Shown here: positions 5,479 through 63,439 of the stretch, piece after piece
How positions within the stretch are numbered: position 1 is the stretch's first letter
Layout: each line of letters begins with the position of its first letter
Notes under the pieces: generated by a model
Database searches by the model: none
Told to the model about the DNA's origin: nothing
What the model saw: the letters and a program-made list of their open reading frames with translations, nothing else
Position numbers and translations under genes: made by a program
Virus record (IMG/VR): IMGVR_UViG_3300042308_001511
Location: 280,084 to 344,083 of that record
Direction: 5' to 3' (one strand)
DNA length: 64,000 bases
Source of the DNA: a virus

Positions 5479-5684
5479 TTACATTCCCAATTCCTTAAGT
5501 TTATCTTCTCTGAGCTCTTCTACGGTTCTGAAGTTTTTCCGATCCAGATAAGACCATCTATCACTATCATTTTTGACTAAAATCAAATCCGGAGACATTC
5601 CATAGTCGTTTGCATCGTACCACTTGCCGACGTGACTGACAGGCGTTCTAATATTGATTGATTACTTACACAAATGACCTTCAT
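5479..5684 (-). pseudogene. Frameshifted CIS-family C-tag protein
   Basis: From ATG 5684 one frame reads MKVICVSNQSILERLSV. A second frame then continues VSHVGKWYDANDYGMSPDLI and ends RTVEELREDKLKELGM with TAA at 5479-5481. The length of 206 bases is not a multiple of three. Intact relatives (for example 26216-26431, with VQCVSNRSGYHTDIKIGEWYDA) show that the two parts belong together. A single-base change near 5630-5650, or a sequencing error, explains the break. Confidence 0.7.
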
Positions 5685-5728
5685 ACTATTGTTATTCTCA
5701 TAGGAACAAATATAGCGATTAAAAAGAA

Positions 5729-5758
5729 AGGTGCCAAAAAATACGAGTTTTTTGGCAA
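5729..5758. terminator. Hairpin resembling the 1381-1415 terminator
   Basis: GGTGCCAAAAAA, loop tacgag, TTTTTTGGCA. It lies between two divergent starts (5684 minus, 5797 plus), where no gene ends. It may insulate the two promoters or be left from a lost gene. Confidence 0.6.
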
Positions 5759-5782
5759 CTCATCATACTGGGTTCCGGTAAA

Positions 5783-5792
5783 TAATATATAC
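5783..5792 (+). promoter_or_regulatory. TATATA box 4 bases before ATG
   Basis: TAATATATAC then ccctt-ATG at 5797. If this is a -10-like element, transcription would start almost at the start codon, giving a leaderless or nearly leaderless mRNA. Confidence 0.45.
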
Positions 5793-5796
5793 CCTT

Positions 5797-6441
5797 ATGA
5801 GACTACTGAAGACATTCGAGGGATTCCACCTGGACGAGACAACACAGTTGATAACACACCTCTGCGAGGAACTGGGAGTTGACATAACATCCAGTGAAGA
5901 GATTGAGAGTGCGACAATATACACAACCGACTATTCTGAGTTGTCCGAACTAGAGATTGCTACGATACTAGAAGACCACATACCTATGCTGGGTGAGGGT
6001 AAAAGGATCGCGATGGCAATCGACCGGCTTAAGCCGATGAGGATATTCGTCTACGAGGGTAACCTGATTGATGTGATATTCTCCTACCTAGACTCAAGGC
6101 TCGGTGACATGGAGGTTGAGACCAACAAGAACAGGTGGGGTGAAGACACAATCGTGTACACAAAGGGTGGTTCGTGGTACTTCTGGCACTTCAAAGACGA
6201 CAGTGAGCTGAAGATATCCTACCAGAACGAGAACATACTCAACGAGATTGGATTGAAGAGCAAGCTAATAATGCCCAAAGTGGATCTCGAAGGGTTCATC
6301 GATTACATATCTGGGAACCACTACGAGCGGGGTGAGAAGATTACCGCGAACATATCGGCGGGATCCGTGAAACGTATGAACGTGGTGCATGAGTGGTTCT
6401 CCTCCAGGTTCGAGAAGTTCGACTACGTGGACTTCGTATAA
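5797..6441 (+). CDS. N-tagged hypothetical protein, 214 aa
   Basis: N-tag MRLLKTFEGFHLDE; the start is fixed by the TATATA box directly upstream. It is acidic, with a helical first third and a mixed alpha/beta centre (RIFVYEGNLIDVIFSYLDSR). It shares the FEEF/DE-x-TQLI opening with the minus-strand proteins at 6753 and 32706 (DEVTQIIIS), so these may be distant paralogs. Function unknown. It converges on the minus gene ending at 6445. Confidence 0.75.
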   Translation: MRLLKTFEGFHLDETTQLITHLCEELGVDITSSEEIESATIYTTDYSELSELEIATILEDHIPMLGEGKRIAMAIDRLKPMRIFVYEGNLIDVIFSYLDSRLGDMEVETNKNRWGEDTIVYTKGGSWYFWHFKDDSELKISYQNENILNEIGLKSKLIMPKVDLEGFIDYISGNHYERGEKITANISAGSVKRMNVVHEWFSSRFEKFDYVDFV

Positions 6442-6444
6442 GTT

Positions 6445-6699
6445 TTATAGACCAAGTTCCTTTAGCTTCATCTCGCGCCACTCTTCCTTTGAGACGAATC
6501 TCGACCTTAGATACTCGGTGTTGTGACCGAAGTTGTTGATGATCTCGACGAACTCGTCGAACAGGTTTTCTGCATAGTTTACTACCTCGTACTCCTTTCC
6601 GTAGGTCAAGCCCCCAGGGATATGGCCTCTGGATTTGTATCCTCTTTTTGTTGATTCGTTGTTGTCGTAAGGTTCTATACAGACGATTTTTTCACACAT
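6445..6699 (-). CDS. CIS-family C-tag protein
   Basis: 84 aa. It opens MCEKIVCIEPYDNN, has the family core GGLTYGKEYEVVNY, then YLRSRFVSKEEWREMKLKEL and ends GL. The pattern suggests a small SH3-like barrel plus a C-terminal helix. The tag is kept although no gene starts at its stop, so selection acts on the peptide. Closest relatives in the window are 24481-24717 and 47035-47271. Confidence 0.75.
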   Translation of the reverse strand: MCEKIVCIEPYDNNESTKRGYKSRGHIPGGLTYGKEYEVVNYAENLFDEFVEIINNFGHNTEYLRSRFVSKEEWREMKLKELGL

Positions 6700-6726
6700 G
6701 CCGTAAATATACGATAAAGTATTAAA

Positions 6727-6754
6727 GAAAAAAGCACCTAAGGTGCCTTTTTTT
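6727..6754. terminator. Hairpin terminator
   Basis: AAAAAAGCACCT / AGGTGCCTTTTTT with a tiny loop and one bulged C. It ends minus-strand transcripts from 6753-7295; its arm touches the stop codon. Confidence 0.65.
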
Positions 6755-7295
6755 ATCTCATTGATAGGACGAATACTATGTACTCTAATATCAAATCTTT
6801 CCTCCTGTGCTTGTACTCCCAGACGTCCTCCCCGGACTCTAACTCGTCATCTTCGTTAGTGAACTCGTCGAAGAAGGTGTCCGCGAAGTCCTCCTCCTCT
6901 GCGTCAGGATTAGAGGTGCCAAGTTCGTCTTTCAGAATATCCAAGCAGTCCCATAGTTCATCCTGATCGAGCATCTCGAGAAGTTCATCCTCGTCGTAGA
7001 AAATCACATATATCCTGTCGCTGGTACCGCCACCCTGTCCTACGGCGTAGTTCCAACCCTCGTCTTCGAGCATAGGTTTGAACCTGGTCTTAGTGTCTTT
7101 GTCAATGAACGGATTTTGACCATAAGGACCATAAGATGGTTTGTCTGCGTAGGACCATATACGAAACACGTTGTCTTTGGCGAGATTTATCCTCTCGGCA
7201 TCTTTGTCTTCCAGCATCGCAGTGGCTATCTGGTTGACCTGGTCCATTTTGTTATCCTGTCCGAACTCCTCGAACATCATCAGTCTTCTTCTCAT
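6753..7295 (-). CDS. N-tagged acidic protein, 180 aa
   Basis: N-tag MRRRLMMFEEFGQDN, then a strongly acidic body (EEEDFADTFFDEFTNEDDELE). It is a paralog of 32706-33215: both have FEEFG, RIWxY near residue 45-50 and GEDxWE near the C-terminus. This lineage also resembles 12621 and 19224. The protein is DNA-mimic-like in charge, so an inhibitory or packaged role is possible but unproven. A TAATATATA box lies 4 bases before the ATG. Confidence 0.75.
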   Translation of the reverse strand: MRRRLMMFEEFGQDNKMDQVNQIATAMLEDKDAERINLAKDNVFRIWSYADKPSYGPYGQNPFIDKDTKTRFKPMLEDEGWNYAVGQGGGTSDRIYVIFYDEDELLEMLDQDELWDCLDILKDELGTSNPDAEEEDFADTFFDEFTNEDDELESGEDVWEYKHRRKDLILEYIVFVLSMR

Positions 7296-7299
7296 GCTT

Positions 7300-8436: not shown

Positions 8437-8642
8437 CTATGAAGTGATTCAACCGTTATACTTCCATCTTCATGCTTGGTGAACTTATCTCCTTTCGACG
8501 GTAGGTGCATTTTACCGTTGGCTAATCGTATGAATGATCCTACGGTATCACAACCATCTCTTTCTTCTCTTATGCAGTTCCCTTCGAAGAACTTCTGAGC
8601 TTCTCGCCCCATCCATCCTTCATATACTAATTCTTCTTTCAT
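8433..8642 (-). CDS. Small hypothetical protein, 69 aa
   Basis: Start MKEELVYEGWMGREAQKFF at 8642 overlaps the preceding stop as ATGA, favouring it over the long upstream extension. It ends DGSITVESLHR without a C-tag, and its stop overlaps the ATG of the broken KGF gene. No family recognised. Confidence 0.6.
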   Translation of the reverse strand: MKEELVYEGWMGREAQKFFEGNCIREERDGCDTVGSFIRLANGKMHLPSKGDKFTKHEDGSITVESLHR

Positions 8643-8896
8643 CTTATTCCCAGTTCTTTTAGTTTGTCTTCTCTTAGTATTACAAGGTACTCGTCGATTG
8701 GGTACCACCAAGCAGAAGTGCCATTGTCTACGTTTTTATTTCCGAATTCTATTTTGAAGGTGCCATTATCGTGGTCTATTTCTACAATGGTTCCATCGAC
8801 GCCTATGAGGTTGTACATAGGTGTTGTCATCGCAACAAATAAGGCTCGCCTCTGTTCTGCGAATTCGAACCCTTTCACTCTGTCTCCTATCTTCAT
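8639..8896 (-). CDS. KGF-family C-tag protein
   Basis: 85 aa: MKIGDRVKGFEF, then NLIGVDGTIVEID, a variable strand-rich centre, WWYPIDEYLVI and the tag REDKLKELGIR. The fold is probably a small beta barrel with a C-terminal helix. It is joined to both neighbours by ATGA overlaps. Its closest relatives are 9117-9347 and 9344-9622, so the stretch looks like a tandem duplication. Confidence 0.75.
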   Translation of the reverse strand: MKIGDRVKGFEFAEQRRALFVAMTTPMYNLIGVDGTIVEIDHDNGTFKIEFGNKNVDNGTSAWWYPIDEYLVILREDKLKELGIR

Positions 8897-9120
8897 ATTC
8901 CAAGTTGTTTCAGTTTCTCTTCTCTGTACTCGTCGGGCTCCAGGAATTGTAGGTGTCTGTTGTGAACGACCAGCTCGTACTCGGTCCCGTCGACGGTGAA
9001 GAAGACTAAGGTATAGTATTTGTTCGAGAATTCCGACTTGTAGAGACCACCACAGATGAGCGGCTCGTAACTGTAGTCCTTCAGCGTCGCGTCGTCCGAT
9101 ATGACCTTTACGTATTTCAT
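8893..9120 (-). CDS. Small C-tag protein, 75 aa
   Basis: MKYVKVISDDATLKDYSYEP, then CGGLYKSEF and short strands ending YREEKLKQLGI. The LxxGGLY segment may correspond to the LTxGKxY step of the CIS family, making this a divergent member. Stop and start codons overlap those of both neighbours. Confidence 0.7.
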   Translation of the reverse strand: MKYVKVISDDATLKDYSYEPLICGGLYKSEFSNKYYTLVFFTVDGTEYELVVHNRHLQFLEPDEYREEKLKQLGI

Positions 9121-9347
9121 ATCCCTAGTTCTTTTAGTCTCCGTTCCCTTTGTATCGCCAGGTACTCCTTGATTGGGTAGGACCAGTAGCCGACTCCGTC
9201 GTAGAATATGCTGAATGTGTCGGTCCCCACGTCGCTTACGACGCCTTCTACACCCACGAAACGGTTCATACCTCTATTGTAGTTAAGGATTGCCGAGTTA
9301 TTGAATGCGGGGAATTTGAATCCTTTCGCTATGTCTCCTATCTTCAT
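9117..9347 (-). CDS. KGF-family C-tag protein
   Basis: 76 aa: MKIGDIAKGFKFPAF, RFVGVEGVVSDV, YWSYPIKEYLAI and the tag RERRLKELGI. It is among the shortest intact members and so outlines the core of the family. ATGA overlaps on both sides. Confidence 0.75.
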   Translation of the reverse strand: MKIGDIAKGFKFPAFNNSAILNYNRGMNRFVGVEGVVSDVGTDTFSIFYDGVGYWSYPIKEYLAIQRERRLKELGI

Positions 9348-9622
9348 ATCCCAAGTTCTTTAAGTTTTTCTTCTCTCTGCAATACCAGGTATTCGTCCAG
9401 AGGATAGATCCAGTGCTGCATGTTTGGTTCTGCTGGCATTACGCGAAATGTATCTACGTGTATGGGTGTACCGATAAAGCCTATGACCAGCTCGTTCATT
9501 TTCGGCCTGACCTGCCTCGCGATACCTTCCACGCCCACGAACTGTTCCATTAGGTCGTTCCAGTGAACCCCACTCGAGTTTTCGAACCGGAATCCTTTTG
9601 CCTTGTCTCCACGCTTAATCAT
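9344..9622 (-). CDS. KGF-family C-tag protein
   Basis: Start set at ATG 9622 (MIKRGDKAKGFRFENSSG), matching sister genes, not the upstream ATG at 9649. Contains FVGVEGIARQV, a Met/Pro-rich insert and WIYPLDEYLVLQREEKLKEL-GI. The insert length before the WxYP element is the main difference between relatives. Confidence 0.75.
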   Translation of the reverse strand: MIKRGDKAKGFRFENSSGVHWNDLMEQFVGVEGIARQVRPKMNELVIGFIGTPIHVDTFRVMPAEPNMQHWIYPLDEYLVLQREEKLKELGI

Positions 9623-9629
9623 CTTTCTA

Positions 9630-9875
9630 TCAAAAATGGTCTGGATCATAAAAGTCTCTATCTATGAATATAAGATCAGAGACCGGTATTGTTTTATAAC
9701 CATCATCGAATGTTTTATTGTTTAGAATAAATGCTGTGCCGAAGTCAAACGAATAATCTGAATTTTGAACGCAGCATATCTTATAGGTATTATCATTGTA
9801 ATTGTATGATACTTTGACAATATCACCTTCTAATACTTCTATGGCAGTGTCTTTGTATTTGAGCTTTATTTTCAT
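9630..9875 (-). CDS. Hypothetical beta-rich protein, 81 aa
   Basis: MKIKLKYKDTAIEVLEGDIV opens like a small beta barrel. It ends IDRDFYDPDHF without a C-tag. It lies in the KGF array but has different sequence and lower GC. Its stop is 8 bases from the next gene's ATG. Confidence 0.65.
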   Translation of the reverse strand: MKIKLKYKDTAIEVLEGDIVKVSYNYNDNTYKICCVQNSDYSFDFGTAFILNNKTFDDGYKTIPVSDLIFIDRDFYDPDHF

Positions 9876-9937: not shown

Positions 9938-10279
9938 TCATATTCCTATTTCTTTTAGTTTTTCTTCTCTATCTCTTCTTAATATCTCATTATCAAAAGG
10001 TATCCAATTTTCATCAAAGCTATACTTATAGATTTTCTTATTATCTTGCCAAATAAGATAAGAAGAAAACTTAACTACATTACCAAGATAGTCTACTCCT
10101 GTAAAAGCTTCTTTGTGTATGCTTTTTCCAAAACCCACTTTTTGAGTTTCTATATCCCTGATTATTTTTAATAAATCTTCAAAATCAATATCTCGCTCTA
10201 TAATTTCTTCGCCAGTAGTTGATATATACTCACCGGGCTTTAAAAACTTTATTTTAAGTATTTTCTCTATTTCCATCAT
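9938..10279 (-). CDS. C-tag protein, 113 aa
   Basis: MMEIEKILKIKFLKPGEYIS, then an acidic helical middle (DIDFEDLLKIIRDIE) and a strand-rich second half, ending LRRDREEKLKEIGI. It is more AT-rich than its neighbours. The KxLKPGEYIS opening may be a variant barrel start. It overlaps the stop of 10276-10554 by ATGA. Confidence 0.7.
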   Translation of the reverse strand: MMEIEKILKIKFLKPGEYISTTGEEIIERDIDFEDLLKIIRDIETQKVGFGKSIHKEAFTGVDYLGNVVKFSSYLIWQDNKKIYKYSFDENWIPFDNEILRRDREEKLKEIGI

Positions 10280-10554
10280 ATCCCTAATTCTTTTATTCTT
10301 TCTTCTCTATACCATGACACCGGCATGAAGTAGGGATCGAACCAGGGTTCGATCCCAGGCGTGACCACAAGGTTCTCGTCGACCCACTGCTCTATCCAGT
10401 TACAGGTTAGACCATCGTCGGATTTGAGCTTGTAGATCCATTGTCCAAATGAGTCGAGCGCTCGGTCAGTTATCTCGTATGTCTTTCCCAGGACGAGGGT
10501 GTTATAGTTTTCCTCACCTTTCGTGCATATTACTCGTTCTCCTATTTCTAACAT
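10276..10554 (-). CDS. CIS-family C-tag protein
   Basis: 92 aa: MLEIGERVICTKGEENYNTL, VLGKTYEITDRA, YKLKSDDGL and the tag YREERIKELGI. The ICT and GKTYEIT elements place it in the CIS family. It carries a Pro/Trp-rich insert before the tag. Confidence 0.75.
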   Translation of the reverse strand: MLEIGERVICTKGEENYNTLVLGKTYEITDRALDSFGQWIYKLKSDDGLTCNWIEQWVDENLVVTPGIEPWFDPYFMPVSWYREERIKELGI

Positions 10555-11248: not shown

Positions 11249-11551
11249 TTATATGCCGAGTTCGTTTATTCTTTCATGTCTTGTAATCTCTATGTAGTCA
11301 GCGATTGGGTAGGTCCAATAATCATAATTTTGAAAATGAAGCAGATCAGACAAATTCCTGAGGTTCATGAACTTTACTACAAATGTCTCCTCCTTTACCT
11401 CAGCAACTTCACCCTCTTCACCAACGTAGAGATCCATGCTGGGGTGGTAGTTCAGCCCGGTCGTTTTGTCTATTGAAAAGGTGGTCTCAGATCCGTCACC
11501 TATTTTCTCTCCGAACTTGAACCCCTTTACTTTGTCTCCTACTTTTATCAT
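11249..11551 (-). CDS. KGF-family C-tag protein
   Basis: Start MIKVGDKVKGFKFGEKIGDG at 11551 matches sister genes. GEEGEVAEV replaces the usual GVEG, and YWTYPIADYIEITRHERINE-LGI closes the protein. The long polar insert after KGFKF is specific to this copy. Confidence 0.75.
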   Translation of the reverse strand: MIKVGDKVKGFKFGEKIGDGSETTFSIDKTTGLNYHPSMDLYVGEEGEVAEVKEETFVVKFMNLRNLSDLLHFQNYDYWTYPIADYIEITRHERINELGI

Positions 11552-11552
11552 A

Positions 11553-12314
11553 TCAATGTGGTACAATGATTGTCTTGCCCTCACCCTTCTTTACATGTTC
11601 TCTCTCGTTCAGTATCCTCTTTATAGCAGCGTTCCCAATACCTCTGTTCCTTTTCATTCCTGCCTTATACATCTTCAATAACCTCTCAGTCGATAACTTC
11701 TCTAGTCTTTTGTCCTCGGGTCTCTTATCCTTCTGTGCCAATGGCTTGGCTTTCTCTACCTTTCTTTTGGAGAGCTTGGTCCCGCAAACGTATCTGTGCT
11801 CGTCGTCGCCTACCCTGACCGACCATAGCTGGTAGCCTTTATCCTCGTTTTGGTGCTTGAAGGTGATTGTGGCGTGGTGTCCATTATAGTAGACTGGCTC
11901 ACCTACGGTGAATGAGTTGGCCCACTCCATTTTTACCTGACGGATCTCTTCTTTGAAGTTAATCCCAGGTGGAACCATAATGTTTCGCCAGGTCGTTGTC
12001 TTACCTGAACGTAGCTCTTCCAGGCGTTTTTGCTGCTCGTCCGAGTATATGATACTCTCGATGTCGAAGGTCTCTTCCAGGTCTTCCCCTTTGTTGTCCA
12101 GCAGGTCTTCTATGAGTGAGTTCCTAATCTCGGCTTTGATGTCGAGGTGGTCGATGTGTATGTAGTCAACCAGGAATGAAGGTTCGTGGTTATACATTGA
12201 TATCTTTATGTAGTGTGCGATGTGTGTGCCCTCGTGCCTCTCTAAACTGAGAAGCTTGTGGAATCCGGATACCCTGCTTCGGACTAAGTCCTCTATTCTC
12301 TTACTGTGTTCCAT
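11553..12314 (-). CDS. Basic hypothetical protein, 253 aa
   Basis: Starts MEHSKRIEDLVRSRVSGFHK. The N-terminal half is acidic and helical; the centre has strands (FTVGEPVYYNGHHATITFKH) resembling a KOW/SH3-type barrel; the C-terminus is Lys/Arg-rich helix. This looks like a barrel plus a basic tail that could bind RNA or DNA. No family assigned. Confidence 0.7.
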   Translation of the reverse strand: MEHSKRIEDLVRSRVSGFHKLLSLERHEGTHIAHYIKISMYNHEPSFLVDYIHIDHLDIKAEIRNSLIEDLLDNKGEDLEETFDIESIIYSDEQQKRLEELRSGKTTTWRNIMVPPGINFKEEIRQVKMEWANSFTVGEPVYYNGHHATITFKHQNEDKGYQLWSVRVGDDEHRYVCGTKLSKRKVEKAKPLAQKDKRPEDKRLEKLSTERLLKMYKAGMKRNRGIGNAAIKRILNEREHVKKGEGKTIIVPH

Positions 12315-13055: not shown

Positions 13056-13370
13056 TCAAATCCCAATCTCCGATAGTCTACAATCTCTTAGAAGCTCTTT
13101 GAATACCAATATATCGACTTCCAATGTATTGTCAAAGCAAATATCATCGGGCATGCTTTGGAGCTTATTGTCTTTATATACGAAATAGCATTTGTTAGGA
13201 TCTAAAAGAATCGATTCTGTAATCTCTCTTATGGCTCTTTCTTCAGATACTCGCCATTTATTGAATGATCCTTTTTCATAGTCCCACTGATAGTCGACCC
13301 AGCGAATGAATCTTTTTCCAAGGCGTTCTCTCTTTTCGCTTTTGATGGCGTTTAAAAGGCTCTCACTCAT
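13056..13370 (-). CDS. C-tag protein, 104 aa
   Basis: Helical, basic N-terminus (LLNAIKSEKRERLGKRFIRW), an acidic middle and the ending ELLRDCRLSEIGI, a variant tag with Cys at the third position. Overlaps the stop of 13367-13921 by ATGA. Convergent with the plus gene ending at 13055, so no gene follows its tag. Confidence 0.7.
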   Translation of the reverse strand: MSESLLNAIKSEKRERLGKRFIRWVDYQWDYEKGSFNKWRVSEERAIREITESILLDPNKCYFVYKDNKLQSMPDDICFDNTLEVDILVFKELLRDCRLSEIGI

Positions 13371-13921
13371 ATCCCAAGACTTGATATTTTATCGTCTCTC
13401 TTTCCCTCTACGTCCAGGTACCCTTCTTTTTTCATTAGCCTTTCTACGAATTCTCGTTTTCTCTTACGTTCTTCTTTTTCTGCTATCTCGTCTTTGTATC
13501 TGGTATCAAGGTATTTCTTTATGGTCTCCATTAAGCTGTATTTGTCTAGGTCGAATTTGCCTATTTCTTTACAGGAGAAGATACCTTGTTTCACCAATAG
13601 TCCTTCTAACTCGTCTTCGTCGATGATTAGTTCAAACTCTCCCATAGTAGAGTGGTACAGTCTCTTTCTCTTTTGAAATGAAATCATAAAGAAAGCGGTG
13701 AAGATTATTCTTCCACTATCCTCAAAGAGTTTGTTTGTGACTCCACCTAAAAAGAGCATCATAACGGTTATTAGGATTCCTATAATAGACATTCCTATAA
13801 CTGCACCAATAGTGACTTCGAATTTGGTTTCTTGTGCCATAGCGTATATAAGGCCTATGGCAGGAGCTGTTACGAATGCTATTCCAATTAGTGTGAATAT
13901 TAATCTTTTTAAGTGTCTCAT
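13367..13921 (-). CDS. Two-TM membrane protein with C-tag
   Basis: 184 aa. TM segments at ~8-28 and ~38-60, then a cytosolic domain and the tag KRDDKISSLGI. It is a paralog of 58198-58743. Shared elements: KRKxxYHSxxGxFxL, VKQGxFxCxEIG, LDxY and KKxxGxLDxExxRD. Probably inner-membrane with the tag in the cytoplasm. It has an unusually long, structured leader. Confidence 0.75.
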   Translation of the reverse strand: MRHLKRLIFTLIGIAFVTAPAIGLIYAMAQETKFEVTIGAVIGMSIIGILITVMMLFLGGVTNKLFEDSGRIIFTAFFMISFQKRKRLYHSTMGEFELIIDEDELEGLLVKQGIFSCKEIGKFDLDKYSLMETIKKYLDTRYKDEIAEKEERKRKREFVERLMKKEGYLDVEGKRDDKISSLGI

Positions 13922-14576: not shown

Positions 14577-14788
14577 ATCCCAATCTCTTTTAGTTGCAGC
14601 TCTCGCCATTCTTCTGGCGTCCAGAACCAGGTTCCTATGAAATCAACGCCTTTGGCTATTTTGAGTCCATAGAACCATTTCTTTTGGTCTTTCTCTCGTA
14701 TAATCATAATGGCGTTTTGTACATAAACACCTTCATATACTTCACCTTTTCTGAAACCATTGTGAGTATGTTTACATATTAGTTTCAT
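14573..14788 (-). CDS. CIS-family C-tag protein, 71 aa
   Basis: MKLICKHTHNGFRKGEVYEG, IMIIREKDQKKWFYG and WTPEEWRELQLKEIGI: a compact example of the family. Start chosen at 14788 because it overlaps the preceding TGA and matches MKxxC sisters; the longer frame is an artefact. Confidence 0.75.
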   Translation of the reverse strand: MKLICKHTHNGFRKGEVYEGVYVQNAIMIIREKDQKKWFYGLKIAKGVDFIGTWFWTPEEWRELQLKEIGI

Positions 14789-18241: not shown

Positions 18242-18249
18242 TTTTTTTA

Positions 18250-18266
18250 CAAATATAACAAATATA
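18250..18266 (-). promoter_or_regulatory. Tandem TATATTTG boxes
   Basis: Two perfect TAnnTTTG boxes 9 bases apart (plus 18250-18257 and 18259-18266), the nearer 8 bases from the proposed GTG. Confidence 0.5.
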
Positions 18267-18270
18267 AGAA

Positions 18271-21921: not shown

Positions 21922-21922
21922 T

Positions 21923-53182: not shown

Positions 53183-54853
53183 ATGAAAAGATTAATGACG
53201 CGTCAACAATTCTTAAACGAAGCACACATTTACTTCGACGATTACCTGGTAGACACGCTGAGTGAGATAGACAACACGATAGCAAAGAGGCTTCTCGACC
53301 TACACAAGAAACAGCAAGACACGGATATCGCTTTCGCGATGCAGGGCAAGAAAGGTAAAGTCAATATAATAACTTATAAAAAAGCAGCAGAGACGCTACG
53401 TAAGAAGGAGGACGACGTTTTCATAAACGATGTGGCAGATGACGTAGAGGCAGACAAGCCACTCGACGACGACTGGCAGATAAAGTCTTTTAACTTCCTT
53501 AGAGACAATAAAGCAATGACCGCGACCAAAATATCGAGGCTTGTAAACACCCTCTTCCCTAAGGAGTACGAAGACACAGAAGGACAAAAGACACTAAGAG
53601 ACCTGATAGACAAATATGGTGCACTTACCGACGACACAATGAAGTTTGAGGTCGTGAAGGGTGAGGAGGTAAAGAAGTGGTATCTTGAAGACAACTACGA
53701 GACAACAAAGGGAGACCTCGGTGGAAGTTGTATGAGACACGACCGATGTCAGACCTACTTCGACATATACATCAAGAATCCGGACGTGGTCAGCATACTA
53801 ATTTGTCTCGGTGCGAAAGGAACGTTGATAGGAAGAGCACTCATCTGGAACCTGTCGGACAGCAATGATCCGTCGCAGCTGATGGACAGGATTTACTTCA
53901 GAGACGAGAGGGTCAAAGAAAAGTTCATAAGCTACGCAGAGGATAACGATATGGCCTACAAACCCGGAAGGGGTCTGACCAATATCGTCTGGCGTGGAGA
54001 GAGATTCAAAAAATCACCGAAGGTAAAACTCGAAGAGTGGGAGTTCGACGAATATCCGTATATGGACACATTCGCGAAGCTCGACATCGAGGACGGTACA
54101 CTATACAACTCAGAAGACAAGGCCGACGGCTTCTACATACTCACATCCACAGACGGTGGATACCACGAGAGAGAGATTGTCTGGTCAACCTACGAAGACC
54201 AGGAGATAGACGAAGAAGAGGCGGTGTGGAGCGAGCCAATACAGGATTGGGTAAGCAGGGAAAATTCCGTATACGTCAGCACGGACTACGACAGAACAAC
54301 AGGCGATTACCCTAAGGACCACCCGGACATCGTACACATACCGAACGAAGGATATTTTCATATCGACGATACACTATGGAGTGAGTGCATGGAACAAGCG
54401 ATACTCTACTCCGACGCGATAGAAATAGTAGGTCACATCGACGATATGGAGGCAGACTCGTTTGGACACGAGATTGACTATGTCGATAGATCGAAAAAAC
54501 TCGTAATCTGGCGGGATATGCTCTGTGCGAACTGGCTGAGGTACCTAATAGACAATGATATCTGGGACGAGAAGCCGTTCCTCGACGACGACGTGGTAAA
54601 GGTAGAGAACGGAAAGTACTACCTAGTCGACTGGTCAATCGTCGCTTACGAGACCGAGAAGGGGCAGCTTTCATTCAAGCATTGTCAGGTTCTCAACATT
54701 AACAACGATGGACTTAAAGAGGTTATGACTGACACGCCTAGTTACTACTGGAACTTGAAATCAGAGATAAAAAAAGAATTAATCTCGGCACTCAAAGGTA
54801 AAGATGATAAAGAGGTAGAGAAGATTGAGAAGTGGATACTAAATACCCAATAG
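53183..54853 (+). CDS. Large N-tagged protein, 556 aa
   Basis: N-terminus MKRLMTRQQFLNEA resembles the N-tag and T4-type cleavage site. Central block GGSCMRHDRCQTYFDIYIKN then VSILICLGAKGTLIGRALIW and MDRIYFRDERVKEKF is a conserved-looking feature (Cys-rich loop, strands, IGRALxW, MDRIYF) that I have seen in tailed-phage hypothetical proteins but cannot name. The rest is acidic. It is the largest N-tagged protein here and so a strong candidate for a packaged, injected protein. Confidence 0.7.
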   Translation: MKRLMTRQQFLNEAHIYFDDYLVDTLSEIDNTIAKRLLDLHKKQQDTDIAFAMQGKKGKVNIITYKKAAETLRKKEDDVFINDVADDVEADKPLDDDWQIKSFNFLRDNKAMTATKISRLVNTLFPKEYEDTEGQKTLRDLIDKYGALTDDTMKFEVVKGEEVKKWYLEDNYETTKGDLGGSCMRHDRCQTYFDIYIKNPDVVSILICLGAKGTLIGRALIWNLSDSNDPSQLMDRIYFRDERVKEKFISYAEDNDMAYKPGRGLTNIVWRGERFKKSPKVKLEEWEFDEYPYMDTFAKLDIEDGTLYNSEDKADGFYILTSTDGGYHEREIVWSTYEDQEIDEEEAVWSEPIQDWVSRENSVYVSTDYDRTTGDYPKDHPDIVHIPNEGYFHIDDTLWSECMEQAILYSDAIEIVGHIDDMEADSFGHEIDYVDRSKKLVIWRDMLCANWLRYLIDNDIWDEKPFLDDDVVKVENGKYYLVDWSIVAYETEKGQLSFKHCQVLNINNDGLKEVMTDTPSYYWNLKSEIKKELISALKGKDDKEVEKIEKWILNTQ

Positions 54854-55174
54854 TTGATCTATTCTACTATTTCTTAATTCTATACGATTCTCTATAAATG
54901 AACTTAGGTTTGAACTCGAACATATTATACCACGTTCGTCGGTGAAGATGTACTTCCATTTATAGTTACCTTCTCGTTGGACTATGAAGACCACTATGGC
55001 ATCGTATATCACACCACATCGCATTGATATTATTTTACCATTTTTTTGGTTTACGTACATATTTTTTTTGACCATTATTCTGACCTGCTCTGCCTCAGTG
55101 TTCAGTGTCATGCTTCGATTCCAGTATTTCAGATCTGCAGTATGTTGCTTCTCTGGCCTTATTTTATACATCAT
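54839..55174 (-). CDS. C-tag variant protein, 111 aa
   Basis: MMYKIRPEKQHTADLKYWNR, strands (KWKYIFTDERGIICSSSNLS) and the end RNSRIDQLLGI. Overlaps the plus gene's 3' end by 15 bases. Intermediate between the ELGI and x-LL tag types. Confidence 0.65.
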   Translation of the reverse strand: MMYKIRPEKQHTADLKYWNRSMTLNTEAEQVRIMVKKNMYVNQKNGKIISMRCGVIYDAIVVFIVQREGNYKWKYIFTDERGIICSSSNLSSFIENRIELRNSRIDQLLGI

Positions 55175-55428
55175 TTAAGTATTTCGTTAAGTTTGTCTTC
55201 TCTTCTTTCCCAGTCCTCTGTTTTGTTGGTGTACATCCAATCCCCTGCTATGATCACCTCTTTTCTTTTACAACAAATGCACCTTCTTATTTCCCGTTCA
55301 AAGGGTTGATCTATGTGATTTGTTCTCCACCTCGTAATGTATTTTGGAAAAGTGGATCTCAGTGTTATATTTGCTTTGTAATGTTCCCATATATGGAAAC
55401 CGAACTTACATTTTATTTTCTGTATCAT
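55171..55428 (-). CDS. Zinc-ribbon-like small protein with tag, 85 aa
   Basis: MIQKIKCKFGFHIWEHYKAN with later RRCICCKRKEVIIAGDWMYT: Cys residues near both ends fit a small zinc-binding fold common in phage proteins (CKxGxHxW ... RxCxxC). End RREDKLNEILK (ILK tag). ATGA link to 55425. Confidence 0.65.
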   Translation of the reverse strand: MIQKIKCKFGFHIWEHYKANITLRSTFPKYITRWRTNHIDQPFEREIRRCICCKRKEVIIAGDWMYTNKTEDWERREDKLNEILK

Positions 55429-55799
55429 TTAAGTACTTTTTCGAGTGCCTCATCTCTAAGCTCGGCCTTTATGTATGATAGTGTCGCGTCGAGACCAATC
55501 TCTTTACGCATATCCATATACCTTTTGAATTCCCTTATGTTCACACAGTTGATTGTGAACTCCCTCTCGTAGTCGTTCCGATATGTGGTCATCCATATTT
55601 TTGCGGCGCTGGGTATGAAGTGGTTTTGGCAGAGTATCATATAAAACTCTCCCGAGAATTTTCGTAACATGTCCGTTATCTGTCGCATGTCGTGCACCCT
55701 CCATATTTGTGGATGTGGGAGTATTGGATTCTGCCCACCGAATGTCATTGCGACAATCAGATTCCTATTCCGTCTAATGCGTTTTGTCTTTTCCATCAC
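55425..55799 (-). CDS. C-tag variant protein, 124 aa
   Basis: MMEKTKRIRRNRNLIVAMTF, an alpha/beta core (SGEFYMILCQNHFIPSAAKI) and the end LRDEALEKVLK. The first ~15 residues are basic. No known family. Confidence 0.65.
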   Translation of the reverse strand: MMEKTKRIRRNRNLIVAMTFGGQNPILPHPQIWRVHDMRQITDMLRKFSGEFYMILCQNHFIPSAAKIWMTTYRNDYEREFTINCVNIREFKRYMDMRKEIGLDATLSYIKAELRDEALEKVLK

Positions 55800-56119
55800 T
55801 CAATACCGAGATTGATTAATCTTTCCTCTCTTAGGTACTTTTCCCAATCCTTGAACTCGTTAATCATCGTAGTGAGACCTCTTCGATATCCCTCCATTTC
55901 GAGTGCGTTCAGTGTGAAACCGTTCTCTTTGTAGTCGTCAATCGTTTGGTTCGCAGACTCGAGTTCTCGATTTAGTTCGTGCATCACTGCTTCGTAGTGT
56001 TTCTTATAACGGAGTTCCTCGTTGTCGTTCAGTTTTTCATTGACCATTGACTCGACCATCTGATTGAGTTTCTTTGCAATTATTCTTATCTCTTCTTGCT
56101 CTATGTTTATTTTTTCCAT
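55796..56119 (-). CDS. Helical C-tag protein, 107 aa
   Basis: Nearly all helix: ANQMVESMVNEKLNDNEELR-type and GFTLNALEMEGYRRGLTTMI, ending YLREERLINLGIE. Possible coiled-coil. It heads the operon of 55171-56119. Confidence 0.7.
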   Translation of the reverse strand: MEKINIEQEEIRIIAKKLNQMVESMVNEKLNDNEELRYKKHYEAVMHELNRELESANQTIDDYKENGFTLNALEMEGYRRGLTTMINEFKDWEKYLREERLINLGIE

Positions 56120-56238: not shown

Positions 56239-57105
56239 ATGCGAGTTATATGTGTAAAAATAGGGTCTCTTTCTGAGTTTGAGACGTTCCTTCTTGCCGA
56301 AAATTTGGGATTGGATTACTTATCTATGAATGAGATAAGAAGAGATAAGACTGTTAGGAAATATTGGTTTGACCTGAATGGTGGAAGACTTTTGGCAGTA
56401 GAAAGGGTTATACTGGGTGAAAAAGAGTTTGACCCTATGATGCCTTTAGATTCATTACAATTAGATTCAATTCGTAAAAGTAAGCCTGTTCAGGCAGGTG
56501 AACCAACTAGGAAGTTTAAAGGTGACATAGAAGAGAAGAGGAAAGATTTTCAGCGATTGTTGGAAGAGGAAAGGAAATACAAAGAGGATATGTTGAACCG
56601 TAAGGACTATAATCCTGGTAACATAGTTTGTATAAATTCTAAATCTACATTGGATCAGGTTTTCGCGGTTTGTGTTGTAAATGATGTGGATCCAGTTACG
56701 ACAATTTCTTTTATATACGGTAATAGTCACTTAGATATGACACGTGTTTGGTTTGAAAAAATAACCGGTGTTTTGGTTGCATATAGTTACTACGAATATG
56801 GTAGAGATAACTTTGTTATGGTTGATTGTTTGATACCTAAAAAAGCGATATATCAGATGAGTCACACTCCTGTTAATGTACCGAAATTGAAGGTTTCTGA
56901 TGTTGCAATAGATGCGTATGGTAAGTTGAAAGAGTTAGGAATAGACTTAGGTATACAAAAGTTAGAGAACGTCGTTCTGGTTCAAAAGAACAGAGAGTTT
57001 TTGGAAAAATTACAGAGTGAACTTGCAGATGCAATCGATACTGAAGATTATGAGAAGGCTGCAGTTCTTAGAGATAGAATAAATGCACTAAAGGATAGAG
57101 ATTAA
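56239..57105 (+). CDS. UVR-motif protein, 288 aa
   Basis: MRVICVKIGSLSEFETFLLA, then a basic coiled region (KRKDFQRLLEEERKYKEDML), a middle domain with VCVVNDVDPVTTISFIYGNS, and at residues ~252-285 LEKLQSELADAIDTEDYEKA then AVLRDRINALK. That is the UVR (UvrB/UvrC-type) motif, also in ClpC-like adaptors and McsA. It may bind UvrA/C-like or Clp proteins. AT-rich codons suggest host origin. Confidence 0.75.
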   Translation: MRVICVKIGSLSEFETFLLAENLGLDYLSMNEIRRDKTVRKYWFDLNGGRLLAVERVILGEKEFDPMMPLDSLQLDSIRKSKPVQAGEPTRKFKGDIEEKRKDFQRLLEEERKYKEDMLNRKDYNPGNIVCINSKSTLDQVFAVCVVNDVDPVTTISFIYGNSHLDMTRVWFEKITGVLVAYSYYEYGRDNFVMVDCLIPKKAIYQMSHTPVNVPKLKVSDVAIDAYGKLKELGIDLGIQKLENVVLVQKNREFLEKLQSELADAIDTEDYEKAAVLRDRINALKDRD

Positions 57106-57404
57106 ATTCCTAAATCTCTTAGTTTTTTTTCTCTCTTCATTGCTGATATAAGTGAATTTGGTTGTATACTGAGTACCTTATCTACTACGAAATCAGAGAT
57201 TGTTAATTTATATTTCGTCTCTACTTCAATAATAGCGCCTATTACATCCAGTTCATCCATATCCATATCGTAGAAAGTATTTGCGTTCGGATCCCACTTT
57301 ATACTACAAAGGTTCTCACATATTTCGTCAAATGGTATTTGCATATCACATATAACAGATATAAGAGTTTCTAAGTTTGTAATAAGTTTCTTTGAGTCCA
57401 TCAC
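57102..57404 (-). CDS. Stand-alone acyl-carrier-like protein without the carrier serine
   Basis: 100 aa: a short N-terminal helix, then DMDMDELDVIGAIIEVETKY, which follows the ACP pattern DSLDxVELIMxLExxF. Glu51 replaces the phosphopantetheine serine. VDKVLSIQPNSLISAM completes the ACP helix IV region. The end REKKLRDLGI is a C-tag. It is a second member of the type seen in 35741-36286 (Asp there). It could act as an ACP decoy or scaffold. Confidence 0.7.
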   Translation of the reverse strand: MMDSKKLITNLETLISVICDMQIPFDEICENLCSIKWDPNANTFYDMDMDELDVIGAIIEVETKYKLTISDFVVDKVLSIQPNSLISAMKREKKLRDLGI

Positions 57405-57409
57405 ATTTG

Positions 57410-57712
57410 TTATTTTAATATTTCACCGAGTATAGATTCTCTTAATTCTTCTTTTGTGTAGAACGGAAATGTGTAGTTGGTGTCATCAAATTCGAAAGTC
57501 CAGGTTGCATCGCCTCCACTATCATCTTTTATTCTTATACTACGATTGGATTTGAATATTATAATGTATTGTTTTCCTTTTGTTAGTAATCGATTTTCAT
57601 CTTTTTCATCTGGAACCCATTTTCCGTTTTCTGAATATTTAAGTTGATACGCATCTCTTTTTGCCACACATTTACCACCGGTAACGAACTCGTCTTTTTG
57701 TTCTTGTGTCAT
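57410..57712 (-). CDS. C-tag variant protein, 100 aa
   Basis: MTQEQKDEFVTGGKCVAKRD, SENGKWVPDEKDENRLLTKG with KQYIIIFKSNRSIRIKDDSG, and the end LRESILGEILK. LLTKGKQYIII is a CIS-like barrel step. ATGA link to 57709. Confidence 0.65.
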   Translation of the reverse strand: MTQEQKDEFVTGGKCVAKRDAYQLKYSENGKWVPDEKDENRLLTKGKQYIIIFKSNRSIRIKDDSGGDATWTFEFDDTNYTFPFYTKEELRESILGEILK

Positions 57713-58197: not shown

Positions 58198-58743
58198 TTA
58201 GATACCAAGTTCGTTTATCTTTTTATCTCGTCTGGTCTCTGTGTCGAGGAAGCCGTCCCACTTCTTCATCTTTGCAATCAGTTCGTCCTGTTTCTCGCGT
58301 TCGTGTTTTTCGTTGAGTACGCTTTTGTACTCACGATCTAACATTTCCTTTATGGTATTGGGTACGTCGTAGTTGTCTAATGAAATCTCACCGATTTCGA
58401 GGCAATGAAAAAATCCTTGTTTGTAGACGAATATTTTATTAGCAGAGCGAAATATGTAAAGGTCGAACCAGCCGAGTTTCGAGTGGTAAGTCTTCTTTCT
58501 CTGTCGTGTAAACATCCACCAGAACATAGGAAATATCTTTCCGGTGTATTTTCCTTCTTCGACCATCTTTTCAAACAGAAAGAAAATTGCGGTCTGAACA
58601 ACAATTGTCACTAAGATTATAAGTACTAGAGCTATATTTCCGAGTATTCCTTCGAAATTAGATTTGTGTAAAATGGTTATTGGTATTATTGCGTTCGCCA
58701 AAATACCTAATAATATGTAAACTATCTTCTTAATTATCTCCAT
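58198..58743 (-). CDS. Two-TM membrane protein with C-tag, 181 aa
   Basis: TM segments at ~5-25 and ~34-56; the following cytosolic domain matches 13367-13921 (RKKTYHSKLGWFDLYI, VYKQGFFHCLEIGEISLDNY). End TRRDKKINELGI. Two copies in separate operons point to duplication. Confidence 0.75.
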   Translation of the reverse strand: MEIIKKIVYILLGILANAIIPITILHKSNFEGILGNIALVLIILVTIVVQTAIFFLFEKMVEEGKYTGKIFPMFWWMFTRQRKKTYHSKLGWFDLYIFRSANKIFVYKQGFFHCLEIGEISLDNYDVPNTIKEMLDREYKSVLNEKHEREKQDELIAKMKKWDGFLDTETRRDKKINELGI

Positions 58744-58987
58744 CTTCTAATAAATTTTCTATTCTACTATTTCGCCATTCGTCGATATCCATAAAGTTCT
58801 TACTAAATACACTAAGTTTACCAGTGTCGGTGTCAGTGGTTGGATAAAAAATTACCATTTCATCGTCGTGGTATTCTTTGGTATATGCGAGTTCGAAAAC
58901 TTCTCCTTTATGGTAGGCATGATGTGTCCCGTTATACCAGACTTTATGTAGTGTTTCGGGTCCGTCGTTTATGGCTATTACTTTCAT
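58730..58987 (-). CDS. CIS-like C-tag variant, 85 aa
   Basis: MKVIAINDGPETLHKVWYNG, HAYHKGEVFELAYTKEYHDD, and the end MDIDEWRNSRIENLLEDGDN, an x-LL tag with four extra residues. Overlaps the next gene by 14 bases. Confidence 0.65.
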   Translation of the reverse strand: MKVIAINDGPETLHKVWYNGTHHAYHKGEVFELAYTKEYHDDEMVIFYPTTDTDTGKLSVFSKNFMDIDEWRNSRIENLLEDGDN

Positions 58988-61772: not shown

Positions 61773-61893
61773 ATTTTCATTTTGTTTTTTTTTATCGATA
61801 AAACGATAAGCTTTTTTTTCTATATATTAATTTATAGGTATGAATAATTTGTACTTCTGAGTTTCTGATATATAAATAAAATAATTTTGAGTT

Positions 61894-62616
61894 ATGATTT
61901 TGAAATTAGGATCAAAAGGTGATGACGTCAAAAGACTTCAGGAGAAGTTGGGACTTGGAATGGACGGCACTTTCGGTGTTGTTACTGAGAAAGCTGTAAA
62001 GGATTGGCAATCAAAGAACGGACTTGTTTCGGATGGTATTGTAGGAGATTCTACGTGGGGTAAATTGTTCGGTACTAATGTAGAGGTCGATGCTAATGCA
62101 CCATTAGCATTTATTAGCAAATTGAAAGGGCACATACCTGATGCAGTTTTTTCACAACTTCCTACAACGTGTGCTGCTTATAACATAATTACACCACTTA
62201 GACTTGCACACTTTATGGCACAATGTGCTCACGAATCTGGAAACTTTGTTTGGACAACAGAATTGGCAACTGGTAAGGCATATGAGGGTAGAAAAGATTT
62301 AGGTAATATACAACCGGGTGATGGTGTTAGGTTTAAGGGAAGAGGTTATATACAACTAACAGGAAGAGCCAATTATGAAAAGTTTTCTAAGTTCTGTGGT
62401 GAGGATTGTGTTACTAACCCAGAGTTAGTTGCAACTAAATACCCAATGTTATCTGCTGCTTACTTTTTTCAGAAGACTAAACTTTGGGACATTTGTGATC
62501 AAGGTTCTGATGAAACGGTTGTTACGAAGGTTTCTAAAAGGGTAAATGGTGGAACGAATGGATTAGAAGACAGGAAAAAGAAGTTCAAAAACTTCTGGTC
62601 TATATTATCAAAGTAA
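61894..62616 (+). CDS. Endolysin: peptidoglycan-binding domain plus GH19 lysozyme
   Basis: 240 aa. Residues ~3-60 (LKLGSKGDDVKRLQEKLGLG, DGIVGDSTWGKLFG) form a PG_binding_1 repeat. Residues ~72-240 are a GH19 domain: HFMAQCAHESGNFVWTTEL has the catalytic Glu114 and likely second Glu123, GRGYIQLTGRANY the sugar-binding loop, and SKRVNGGTNGLEDRKKKF the C-terminal signature. It would cut peptidoglycan at the end of infection. No signal peptide, so it needs a holin. Confidence 0.9.
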   Translation: MILKLGSKGDDVKRLQEKLGLGMDGTFGVVTEKAVKDWQSKNGLVSDGIVGDSTWGKLFGTNVEVDANAPLAFISKLKGHIPDAVFSQLPTTCAAYNIITPLRLAHFMAQCAHESGNFVWTTELATGKAYEGRKDLGNIQPGDGVRFKGRGYIQLTGRANYEKFSKFCGEDCVTNPELVATKYPMLSAAYFFQKTKLWDICDQGSDETVVTKVSKRVNGGTNGLEDRKKKFKNFWSILSK

Positions 62617-62627
62617 TTATAATTGAT

Positions 62628-62831
62628 ATGAAAATAAAGTTATTTGAGAAATTCAATTCGAAAAAGAAGAAGACTTTCAATATAGAAGATTGTCCATCTT
62701 TCGGTGAGTTCAGTAAGTTATTGACTGATTTGAAAAAGTTGGCAGAAAAAGTTAGAAAAGAGATGCCACATGGTACTAAAAGTGATTTAGATGACTATAT
62801 TGAGAATAGAATTTTCGGTAGAGATGTATAA
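62628..62831 (+). CDS. N-tagged small basic protein, 67 aa
   Basis: N-tag MKIKLFEKFNSKKKKTFNIE (short form). Helical second half (LLTDLKKLAEKVRKEM). It starts 12 bases after the endolysin stop, so the two may share a transcript. Confidence 0.65.
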   Translation: MKIKLFEKFNSKKKKTFNIEDCPSFGEFSKLLTDLKKLAEKVRKEMPHGTKSDLDDYIENRIFGRDV

Positions 62832-62832
62832 A

Positions 62833-63120
62833 TCAATTGAGTAGGTCGTCAATCTTTTTATCTCTATCGTGTTCTGTAAGTCTTCTCTGAATGGCGTCTA
62901 TTCCTTTTATGAAATTCATAACATAACCGGGTATGATGTGGTGTTTGTCTGATGTGAAATAATCTAACTTCTTACAATTAGCATATGGATACTTTTTACT
63001 AAGAGATTCGAATGTCGTTTCTTCGTCTAAGTCAAGTATCTCATAGCGTATACCCGTTCTGGCTAACTTACGTGATTCCTGTGCGTAGACCGCTATGTCA
63101 TTGAATTTAATGAAATACAT
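62833..63120 (-). CDS. C-tag variant protein, 95 aa
   Basis: MYFIKFNDIAVYAQESRKLA, DLDEETTFESLSKKYPYANC, YVMNFIKGIDAIQRRLTEHD and the end RDKKIDDLLN. TATATTTG box 19 bases upstream. Confidence 0.65.
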   Translation of the reverse strand: MYFIKFNDIAVYAQESRKLARTGIRYEILDLDEETTFESLSKKYPYANCKKLDYFTSDKHHIIPGYVMNFIKGIDAIQRRLTEHDRDKKIDDLLN

Positions 63121-63139
63121 ATTTTTGTTGTGATTTCTA

Positions 63140-63147
63140 CAAATATA
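63140..63147 (-). promoter_or_regulatory. TATATTTG box
   Basis: Perfect TAnnTTTG on the minus strand, 19 bases before ATG 63120. Confidence 0.5.
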
Positions 63148-63151
63148 AAAA

Positions 63152-63439
63152 TTAATAAAGACCTTTCAAAAGTTCGTCAATCTTCATTTCTCTGAAAATG
63201 TCCTTTTGTATCAGAAAACTTTTGTGTACTTTGTAACCATTCGGCCTACCACCTAAATCTTTACCTTCTTCCAATACCTCTACGCTATCACCCCATAGTC
63301 TTATAACGACGTAAGTAGTTCCGTCTATAAGTTGTCTGGGATAACCATTACCCTTCCTTCGGAATACAATCACCCGGTCACCAATCACGTAGGATATGCT
63401 ACCCGACATTATTGTGTCTTTTAATTTCCAAGTATCCAT
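63152..63439 (-). CDS. C-tag variant protein, barrel-like, 95 aa
   Basis: MDTWKLKDTIMSGSISYVIG, DRVIVFRRKGNGYPRQLIDG-TTYVVIRLWGDSVEVLEEGK, and the end FREMKIDELLKGLY. A CIS-type barrel with a longer x-LL tag. The overlap with 63421 is 19 bases. Confidence 0.65.
   Translation of the reverse strand: MDTWKLKDTIMSGSISYVIGDRVIVFRRKGNGYPRQLIDGTTYVVIRLWGDSVEVLEEGKDLGGRPNGYKVHKSFLIQKDIFREMKIDELLKGLY

Follow-up and report, generated by a model that had tools for sequence, protein, structure and literature searches.

Why should dozens of unrelated small proteins of a phage end in the same short peptide? The question is raised by a stretch of 64,000 nucleotides (the window), bases 280084-344083 of the linear, 344-kb IMG/VR record IMGVR_UViG_3300042308_001511, in which an earlier note had seen about 60 proteins with a common C-terminal tag and had proposed a shared address or partner peptide. 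The tag is kept by strong selection on the peptide, and quite probably serves as a C-terminal docking peptide for one shared cytosolic partner, outside the late phase.

When all open reading frames (ORFs) were scanned at their extreme C-terminus for the core pattern R-[EDNQHG]-x-[KRQ]-[LI]-x-x-[LI]-[GLDE]..., 55 matched in the window against 0.05 expected, the chance level being obtained by shuffling the last 15 residues. With obvious variants (e.g. R-D-K-K-I-N-S-L-L-D), the tagged ORFs of the window come to 65, plus one probable, in agreement with the earlier estimate; all such counts depend on the regular expressions used. The tag extends beyond the window, since related phages carry it too and 23 core matches lie elsewhere in the record, giving 78 in the whole 344 kb. 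No other part comes near the density of the window, where 45 of 139 called genes are tagged (genes were called by longest-ORF selection in 20-kb pieces, so that a few next to piece borders are missing and some start sites are incorrect). In several genomes about 9-14% of the called genes carry the tag, and there are about 70-100 different carriers per genome. The tagged ORFs of the window, with their length in amino acids (aa) and their C-terminal end, are the following:

5479-5598, minus: tagged ORF, 39 aa, ...REDKLKELGM
6445-6699, minus: tagged ORF, 84 aa, SH3-barrel-like family, ...REMKLKELGL; convergent neighbour at stop
8639-8896, minus: tagged ORF, 85 aa, ...REDKLKELGIR
8893-9120, minus: tagged ORF, 75 aa, ...REEKLKQLGI
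9117-9347, minus: tagged ORF, 76 aa, ...RERRLKELGI
9344-9649, minus: tagged ORF, 101 aa, ...REEKLKELGI
9938-10279, minus: tagged ORF, 113 aa, ...REEKLKEIGI
10276-10554, minus: tagged ORF, 92 aa, ...REERIKELGI
11249-11584, minus: tagged ORF, 111 aa, ...RHERINELGI
13056-13370, minus: tagged ORF, 104 aa, ...RDCRLSEIGI
13367-13921, minus: tagged membrane protein, 184 aa, ...RDDKISSLGI
14085-14609, minus: tagged ORF, 174 aa, ...RDKKLLEIGI; homologues in related phages; AlphaFold2 tag helix 165-171 at the end
14573-14917, minus: tagged ORF, 114 aa, ...RELQLKEIGI
17595-17948, minus: tagged ORF (variant), 117 aa, ...RELKIDLVLE
17945-18274, minus: tagged ORF, 109 aa, ...REERLKELGV
19859-20116, minus: tagged ORF, 85 aa, ...RENKLNQLGI; convergent neighbour at stop
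21135-21386, minus: tagged ORF, 83 aa, ...RERQLNKLEIQ
21383-21757, minus: tagged ORF, 124 aa, ...REQRLIELGI
21721-22023, minus: tagged ORF, 100 aa, ...REKQLEELGI; probable true start further inside, alignments with homologues beginning at residue 35
24481-24717, minus: tagged ORF, 78 aa, ...RELKLKEIGIE
25640-25966, minus: tagged ORF (variant), 108 aa, ...RDARIELIL
25980-26219, minus: tagged ORF, 79 aa, ...REQRIDSLGI
26216-26431, minus: tagged ORF (variant), 71 aa, ...RQLVLEKLGI
26428-26694, minus: tagged ORF, 88 aa, ...RDQKIKELGI
26691-26945, minus: tagged ORF, 84 aa, ...RDRKLDELGIE
31667-31957, minus: tagged ORF, 96 aa, ...RDLKLEELGI
31954-32193, minus: tagged ORF, 79 aa, ...RQRKIEELGI
34799-35017, minus: probable tagged ORF (variant), 72 aa, ...RDMKIDKIIEI
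35014-35415, minus: tagged ORF, 133 aa, ...RDHRLKDIL
35440-35733, minus: tagged ORF, 97 aa, ...RNHKLSSIGI
35741-36325, minus: tagged ORF, 194 aa, ...RNKRIEELGL
36816-37199, minus: tagged ORF (variant), 127 aa, ...REYKLRFID
38115-38420, minus: tagged ORF, 101 aa, ...REMQLSKIGIDE
39106-39582, minus: tagged membrane protein, 158 aa, ...REKKLEKIGI
39579-39884, minus: tagged ORF, 101 aa, ...RNNRIDELLNDVK
39794-40363, minus: tagged membrane protein, 189 aa, ...REDKLKKIGV
40381-40683, minus: tagged ORF, 100 aa, ...REKKLKDLGIK
40692-40937, minus: tagged ORF, 81 aa, ...REKKLGDLGI
40934-41179, minus: tagged ORF, 81 aa, ...RNKKIDELGI
43515-44123, minus: tagged membrane protein, 202 aa, ...RDRKLDEIGIN
44120-44458, minus: tagged ORF (variant), 112 aa, ...RNWRIDKTLKL
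45493-45921, minus: tagged ORF (variant), 142 aa, ...REQILDQILD
45918-46163, minus: tagged ORF, 81 aa, ...REQQLNKIGI
46545-46787, minus: tagged ORF, 80 aa, ...REAKLAELGV; convergent neighbour at stop
46784-47038, minus: tagged ORF, 84 aa, ...RDKKLNELGI
47035-47388, minus: tagged ORF, 117 aa, ...REMRLKNIGI
47268-47537, minus: tagged ORF, 89 aa, ...RERKLNDLGI
47534-47830, minus: tagged ORF, 98 aa, ...REIKLKEIGI
47844-48074, minus: tagged ORF (variant), 76 aa, ...RGKVLDDLGIN
48172-48393, minus: tagged ORF, 73 aa, ...RQKKLKEIGI
48390-48641, minus: tagged ORF, 83 aa, ...RERKLKQIGI
48643-48975, minus: tagged ORF, 110 aa, ...REIQIRKIGI
48972-49220, minus: tagged ORF, 82 aa, ...REQKLKELGI; AlphaFold2 small SH3-like barrel, tag as separate C-terminal helix 69-79
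49217-49483, minus: tagged ORF, 88 aa, ...RNQRLNELGI
52612-52935, plus: tagged ORF, 107 aa, ...RDKKLGELGI; stop overlaps that of a convergent tagged gene
52932-53153, minus: tagged ORF, 73 aa, ...RDKKINSLLD
54839-55174, minus: tagged ORF, 111 aa, ...RNSRIDQLLGI
55171-55428, minus: tagged ORF, 85 aa, ...REDKLNEILK
55425-55799, minus: tagged ORF (variant), 124 aa, ...RDEALEKVLK
55796-56119, minus: tagged ORF, 107 aa, ...REERLINLGIE
57102-57404, minus: tagged ORF, 100 aa, ...REKKLRDLGI; convergent neighbour at stop
57410-57712, minus: tagged ORF (variant), 100 aa, ...RESILGEILK
58198-58743, minus: tagged membrane protein, 181 aa, ...RDKKINELGI
58730-58987, minus: tagged ORF (variant, extended), 85 aa, ...RNSRIENLLEDGDN
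62833-63120, minus: tagged ORF, 95 aa, ...RDKKIDDLLN
63152-63439, minus: tagged ORF, 95 aa, ...REMKIDELLKGLY

The bodies that carry the tag are indeed unrelated. After removal of the last 14 residues, the 73 tagged proteins of the record still form 66 families (E<1e-3), and over four genomes 356 tagged proteins form 296, so that similarity beyond the tag is the exception. Recent duplication from a single ancestor, the tail being inherited along with the rest, is contradicted by these numbers and is virtually out of the question, a few small families (the SH3-like barrels, proteins with YP[IL]xEY tails) being all that speaks for it. It is also at odds with the behavior of homologues at 25-40% identity, where the body diverges and the tag arginine is kept in 148 of 155 cases (95%) against 164 of 722 body arginines (23%), and the remaining key positions in 88%, compared with 47% of body K, L, and I (pairs conditioned on the query only). 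A first homologue comparison had found the tag kept in 75 of 78 cases, and a wider one in 454 of 502 pairs, many of the exceptions being near-tags. Protein-family searches with the tagged bodies gave almost no matches, single bodies matching riboflavin kinase, BtpA, IscX-like proteins, or acyl carrier protein. A membrane-like segment occurs in roughly a tenth of the tagged proteins and, in those inspected, the tag follows a charged, presumably cytoplasmic, part.

Selection acts on the peptide, as the earlier note had supposed. Over 55 pairs of 50-92% identity, the body has a ratio of nonsynonymous to synonymous change (pN/pS) of 0.37, between that of the key tag positions (0.12) and that of the free ones (0.54), while synonymous change itself (pS) is equal at key positions and in the body (0.56 and 0.58); as the pairs were taken with the tag in both partners, pN is biased down, but pS is not. 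The other possibility, that the 3' ends are conserved as an RNA or DNA signal, either helping the next gene to start or acting as recombination joints, can be given hardly any credence. Many tags do overlap the ATG of the next gene and, with codon use otherwise near background, some positions mildly favor codons that end in A. It is contradicted, however, by the conserved key residues at unreduced pS and by the DNA itself, since all 73 24-nt tag sequences differ from one another, and 44 of the 73 tagged genes do not overlap a downstream start (29 overlap one, 20 are followed by a gap, and 24 face a convergent neighbor, according to simple gene calls). Among the cases singled out earlier as tags kept where no gene starts, those at 6445, 19859, 46545, 52612, and 57102 face convergent genes, and that at 14085 is followed by a gap.

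The consensus of the tag is E-[LIW]-R-[ED]-x-[KR]-[LI]-x-[ED]-[LI]-[GL]-I, with the information concentrated at R(0), [ED/K](+1), [KR](+3), [LI](+4), [LI](+7), and [GL](+8), and weaker preferences from -4 to -1. The last key residue is usually followed by 1 to 5 residues. In 9 and 12 proteins of the 634- and 642-kb phages introduced below, however, the motif stands 6 to 40 residues before the end, and a free carboxylate therefore seems unnecessary. Modelling predicts that the tag is a short amphipathic C-terminal helix: AlphaFold2 places it in a separate terminal helix both behind the small SH3-like barrel (pLDDT 88) and in the conserved 174-residue protein (pLDDT 83), each from a shallow alignment. 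Foldseek returned for the barrel model weak SH3-like matches and nothing else, and for the 174-residue model one match, an uncharacterised marine phage protein. An assignment of the tag to the UVR motif (R-D-x-I-x-x-L) was rejected, as the spacing does not fit. A 288-residue protein with a UVR-like end (YEKAAVLRDRINALKDRD) is encoded on the plus strand at 56239-57105 of the window, adjoining a convergent tagged gene.

The tag is an added module, because homologues of tagged bodies in tag-free phages have a different end or continue differently; one tagged protein of the 642-kb phage, for example, has a homologue without the tag in the 735-kb phage. Small barrels that are related to tagged ones but lack the tag also adjoin tagged genes (e.g. 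L047:2302-2508; L-numbers denote extracted pieces of contigs). GIY-YIG endonuclease-like proteins correspond in their N-terminal part to an 85-residue tagged protein (L251:5439-5696), which looks like a domain that was detached and provided with the tag. For a protein of 83 residues with an R-K type tail (L045:435-686), the homologous sequence is an inner segment of a 699-residue phage protein (L065:5272-7371), which itself has a weak prohead-protease match. A run of tagged genes is conserved in two phages (L009:10792-13465 and L047:2302-11202), and closes in LR745206 with a tagged protein of 731 residues; one member of the run has a relative that matches a prokaryotic E2 model weakly, below the cut-off.

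The record, which contains T4-like replication genes, is probably a fragment, and its type II topoisomerase is 73% identical to the counterparts in LR745206.1 (634 kb) and LR756502.1 (642 kb). Complete huge-phage genomes of 634, 636, 642, and 735 kb were published in 2020, and those >634 kb, with predicted Bacteroidetes hosts, were placed in the 'Mahaphage' clade together with the Lak phages (PMC7162821); the LR records of these sizes are their putative counterparts. A general C-terminal pattern, R...[IL]..[IL], is found in 88 genes of the record, 150 of LR745206, 154 of LR756502, and 134 of LR756504 (636 kb), against 8 to 16 expected. Three lineage versions can be distinguished, R[ED]xKLxELGI, R[DE]xK[LI]xx[IL]L, and RKx[KR]Ixx[LI], the last corresponding to the version R-K-x-[KR]-I-x-x-[LI] of LR756504, which emerged without being presupposed. 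Untagged are LR756500 (462 kb; 10 matches to the general pattern vs 4.6 expected) and, over its whole genome, the Salicola phage SCTP-2 (3 vs 3.1), and no tag was found in samples of the 735-kb LR756501, or of the Lak phages and LR756508 (codes 11 and 15). Tags are also present in additional relatives from IMG/VR. A degenerate DNA pattern for the strict tag matched 41 stretches of IMG/VR, 40 of them with genuine C-terminal tags, and its codon-permuted control matched none. In 257 Gb of bacterial and archaeal genomes the same pattern gave 6 matches and no tagged ORF. From this distribution the tag is, as far as seen, confined to a subclade of huge phages, and no earlier description of such a tag was found in the open-access literature.

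A joint loss of tag and Clp genes in LR756500 was considered and rejected: the topoisomerase tree groups this phage with the 636-kb one, but 31 reciprocal-best proteins put it outside (35.7% vs 42.6% mean identity). Its gp52-like topoisomerase (L018:20001-21089) is unusually close to the tagged clade relative to its other proteins, which suggests gene exchange.

The same phages possess a second candidate address at the other end of their proteins. An N-terminal leader, M-[KR]-x-I-K-x-[FY]-x-x-F, is found on 24 to 52 proteins per genome of tagged phages (by strict pattern, 24 in this record and up to 52 in LR756502), in the window in the form M[KR]xIKx[FY]ExF. It resembles in sequence the capsid-targeting sequence (CTS) of T4 internal proteins, which is N-terminal. 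Judged by the N-terminal pattern, the leader proteins of the window are as follows, and further ones are found in L001-L014:

4580-5461: leader protein
5797-6441: leader protein
6753-7295: leader protein
16579-17289: leader protein
19224-19856: leader protein
30945-31154: leader protein
32706-33215: leader protein
52131-52580: leader protein
62628-62831: leader protein

In an IMG/VR relative, about 11 paralogous leader proteins (MKHIKPYKIF...HYKIIE) form a tandem array (L206:3146-12328).

Leader and tag exclude each other. Over four genomes no protein carries both, against 14 expected, and the late-promoter-like motif TAATATATA lies upstream of 115 of 136 leader genes (85%), 64 of 351 tagged genes (18%), and 1074 of 2967 other genes, the difference between tagged and leader genes being significant at p=8e-43. 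The motif upstream of leader genes (G000, W01, W05, and W02) makes a strong candidate late promoter for this group of huge phages. The absence of proteins with both leader and tag, together with the scarcity of the late-type motif, suggests that the tagged genes are most likely early or middle genes with non-virion products. A host-type promoter, TAnnTTTG, was also sought before tagged genes and showed no consistent enrichment. These results bear on the idea that the tag is a packaging signal by which proteins are loaded into the head and injected. There is a precedent, since T4 packs diverse accessory proteins that have only a terminal targeting sequence in common (PMC3012670), a short terminal peptide like the tag. 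However, the T4 sequence serves packaging, whereas the tag is C-terminal, is apparently not late (a class read from the motif), and never occurs on the 24 to 52 CTS-like proteins of its own phages, so that packaging is very unlikely. Likewise, the virion component or scaffold that the earlier note had listed among possible partners is unlikely, given the complete separation from the capsid-targeting-like proteins and the promoter class. The tag would instead be a second terminal address system beside the leader.

As to what reads this address, the docking reading supposes that a helix appended to unrelated small phage proteins would allow all of them to be bound by one common partner. We infer a single trans-acting reader, presumably in the cytosol because in tagged membrane proteins the tag seems to face the cell interior. 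The lineage versions (R-E/D... and R-K...) differ, as coevolution of tag and reader would predict. Address peptides shared at a terminus are not new in principle, the T4 CTS and encapsulation peptides being precedents. To our knowledge, the peptide, position, carriers, and scale of the tag match no known system. The encapsulation peptides of bacterial microcompartments are likewise short, occur on unrelated enzymes, and send them to one structure (PMC11157265), but have no known sequence relation to the tag, and no shell gene was identified in these phages, although no search aimed at one was made.

It is quite possible, if short of an even chance, that the docking peptide is read by something other than Clp, such as a phage-made compartment or scaffold, a replication complex, RNA polymerase, or the ribosome, and brings early proteins together at one site. 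That the carriers are unrelated, both soluble and membrane proteins and some of metabolic type, is as compatible with a location signal as with a protease signal, and the residues tolerated after the motif suggest that, unlike an ssrA-type degron, no free carboxylate is needed; the comparison of tagged and untagged phages, on the other hand, singled out no shell, hub, or reader gene.

The leading specific candidate, a tentative one and less likely than not, is the phage's own ClpC-ClpP protease with ClpS. A protease had been among the partners suggested earlier, and the suggestion gains circumstantial support from the co-occurrence of these genes, SCTP-2 (below) being the counter-example. All seven tagged genomes tested (G000, W01, W05, W02, G002, G018, and G020) encode a Clp ATPase of about 650-710 residues together with one or more clear ClpP proteins, and six of them also ClpS, the exception being this incomplete record. 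LR756500 has neither Clp ATPase nor ClpS and only weaker ClpP-like proteins, LR756501 the ATPase with neither ClpP nor ClpS, the Lak phages ClpP and ATPase with no ClpS, and LR756508 the ATPase, a weak ClpP-like protein only, and no ClpS. The ClpC of the tagged phages starts with a short acidic stretch in place of the usual adaptor-binding N-domain. Examples, from genomes that elsewhere encode ClpS and one to several copies of ClpP, are:

L005:13802-15922: N-domain-less ClpC ATPase
L043:3224-5329: N-domain-less ClpC ATPase
L076:544-2667: N-domain-less ClpC ATPase
L200:2219-4348: N-domain-less ClpC ATPase

In the Clp version, the tag would work like the ClpX-binding tail (XB) of SspB, delivering the cargo of the body or marking the tagged protein itself for removal. 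Both are short, C-terminal (in the tag also near-terminal and predicted to be helical) peptides; XB tethers a substrate-binding body to a Clp ATPase and can by itself recruit ClpXP (PMC12373786), and the tagged phages encode ATPase and ClpP in the same genome. Yet XB binds the zinc-binding domain of ClpX, the phage ClpC has no N-domain to receive such a tail, and the tag has about 70-100 carriers per genome. The likeness lies in position and form; no sequence relation between tag and XB was found, although none was looked for. Within the Clp reading, a docking helix of this kind fits better than a plain degron owing to its helical, not strictly terminal form. A plain C-terminal degron, through which a phage or host protease removes early proteins at the switch to late genes, is unlikely. 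The ssrA tag, like the phage tag, is a C-terminal peptide on many unrelated proteins, and the depletion of the late-type motif before tagged genes, as well as the ClpC and ClpP of tagged phages, would suit a degron. However, ssrA is added by tmRNA and, like known Clp C-degrons of its type, is unstructured and strictly terminal, whereas the phage tag is gene-encoded, predicted to be helical, and not always terminal; the untagged barrels beside tagged genes also count against a degron.

By analogy, the tagged proteins might be swappable adaptors, with bodies that would grip different host or defence proteins and a helix that would plug into the N-domain-less ClpC-ClpP, in lineage-specific plug-socket pairs; this version is rather improbable. 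Poxvirus ankyrin-repeat proteins combine many variable bodies with one C-terminal F-box/PRANC motif that plugs into degradation machinery. Theirs is a eukaryotic virus and the ubiquitin system, and the analogy extends to the adaptor version only.

Several points weigh against docking on Clp or against the docking reading as a whole. SCTP-2 encodes a ClpA-type ATPase, ClpX, ClpP, and ClpS and yet has no tag genome-wide, so that the Clp set is not sufficient. The missing N-domain of ClpC is not supplied in trans, no stand-alone Clp_N being found in any tagged genome. A late-like motif lies upstream of ClpC in three tagged phages, an arrangement that would favor the plain degron. All tagged phages form one clade, and the association of tag and Clp therefore amounts to about one evolutionary event. 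The timing of the tagged genes is read from a promoter-like motif. Finally, about 100 genes are common to tagged phages and missing from LR756500, with no clear reader among them, and no partner was singled out. The ClpP and ClpS of jumbo phages have earlier been proposed to be directed at host proteins (PMC7824862).

For the majority of huge-phage genes no function is known, and the tag sorts dozens of them into one functional class without homology, which could bring a common partner of dozens of uncharacterised proteins within reach. If the reader is the phage Clp protease, the tag would reveal a virus-made targeted-degradation system in bacteria, which in the adaptor version would have a repertoire like that of viral F-box proteins; a compartment as reader would make the tag a phage sorting signal. 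In either case, the lineage versions offer a natural test of peptide-reader coevolution.

Apart from the tag, the same gene run is found near the end of contig G017 in opposite orientation in two extracted pieces (L144 and L205), and may be the same place extracted twice with the first piece reversed, or an inverted repeat.

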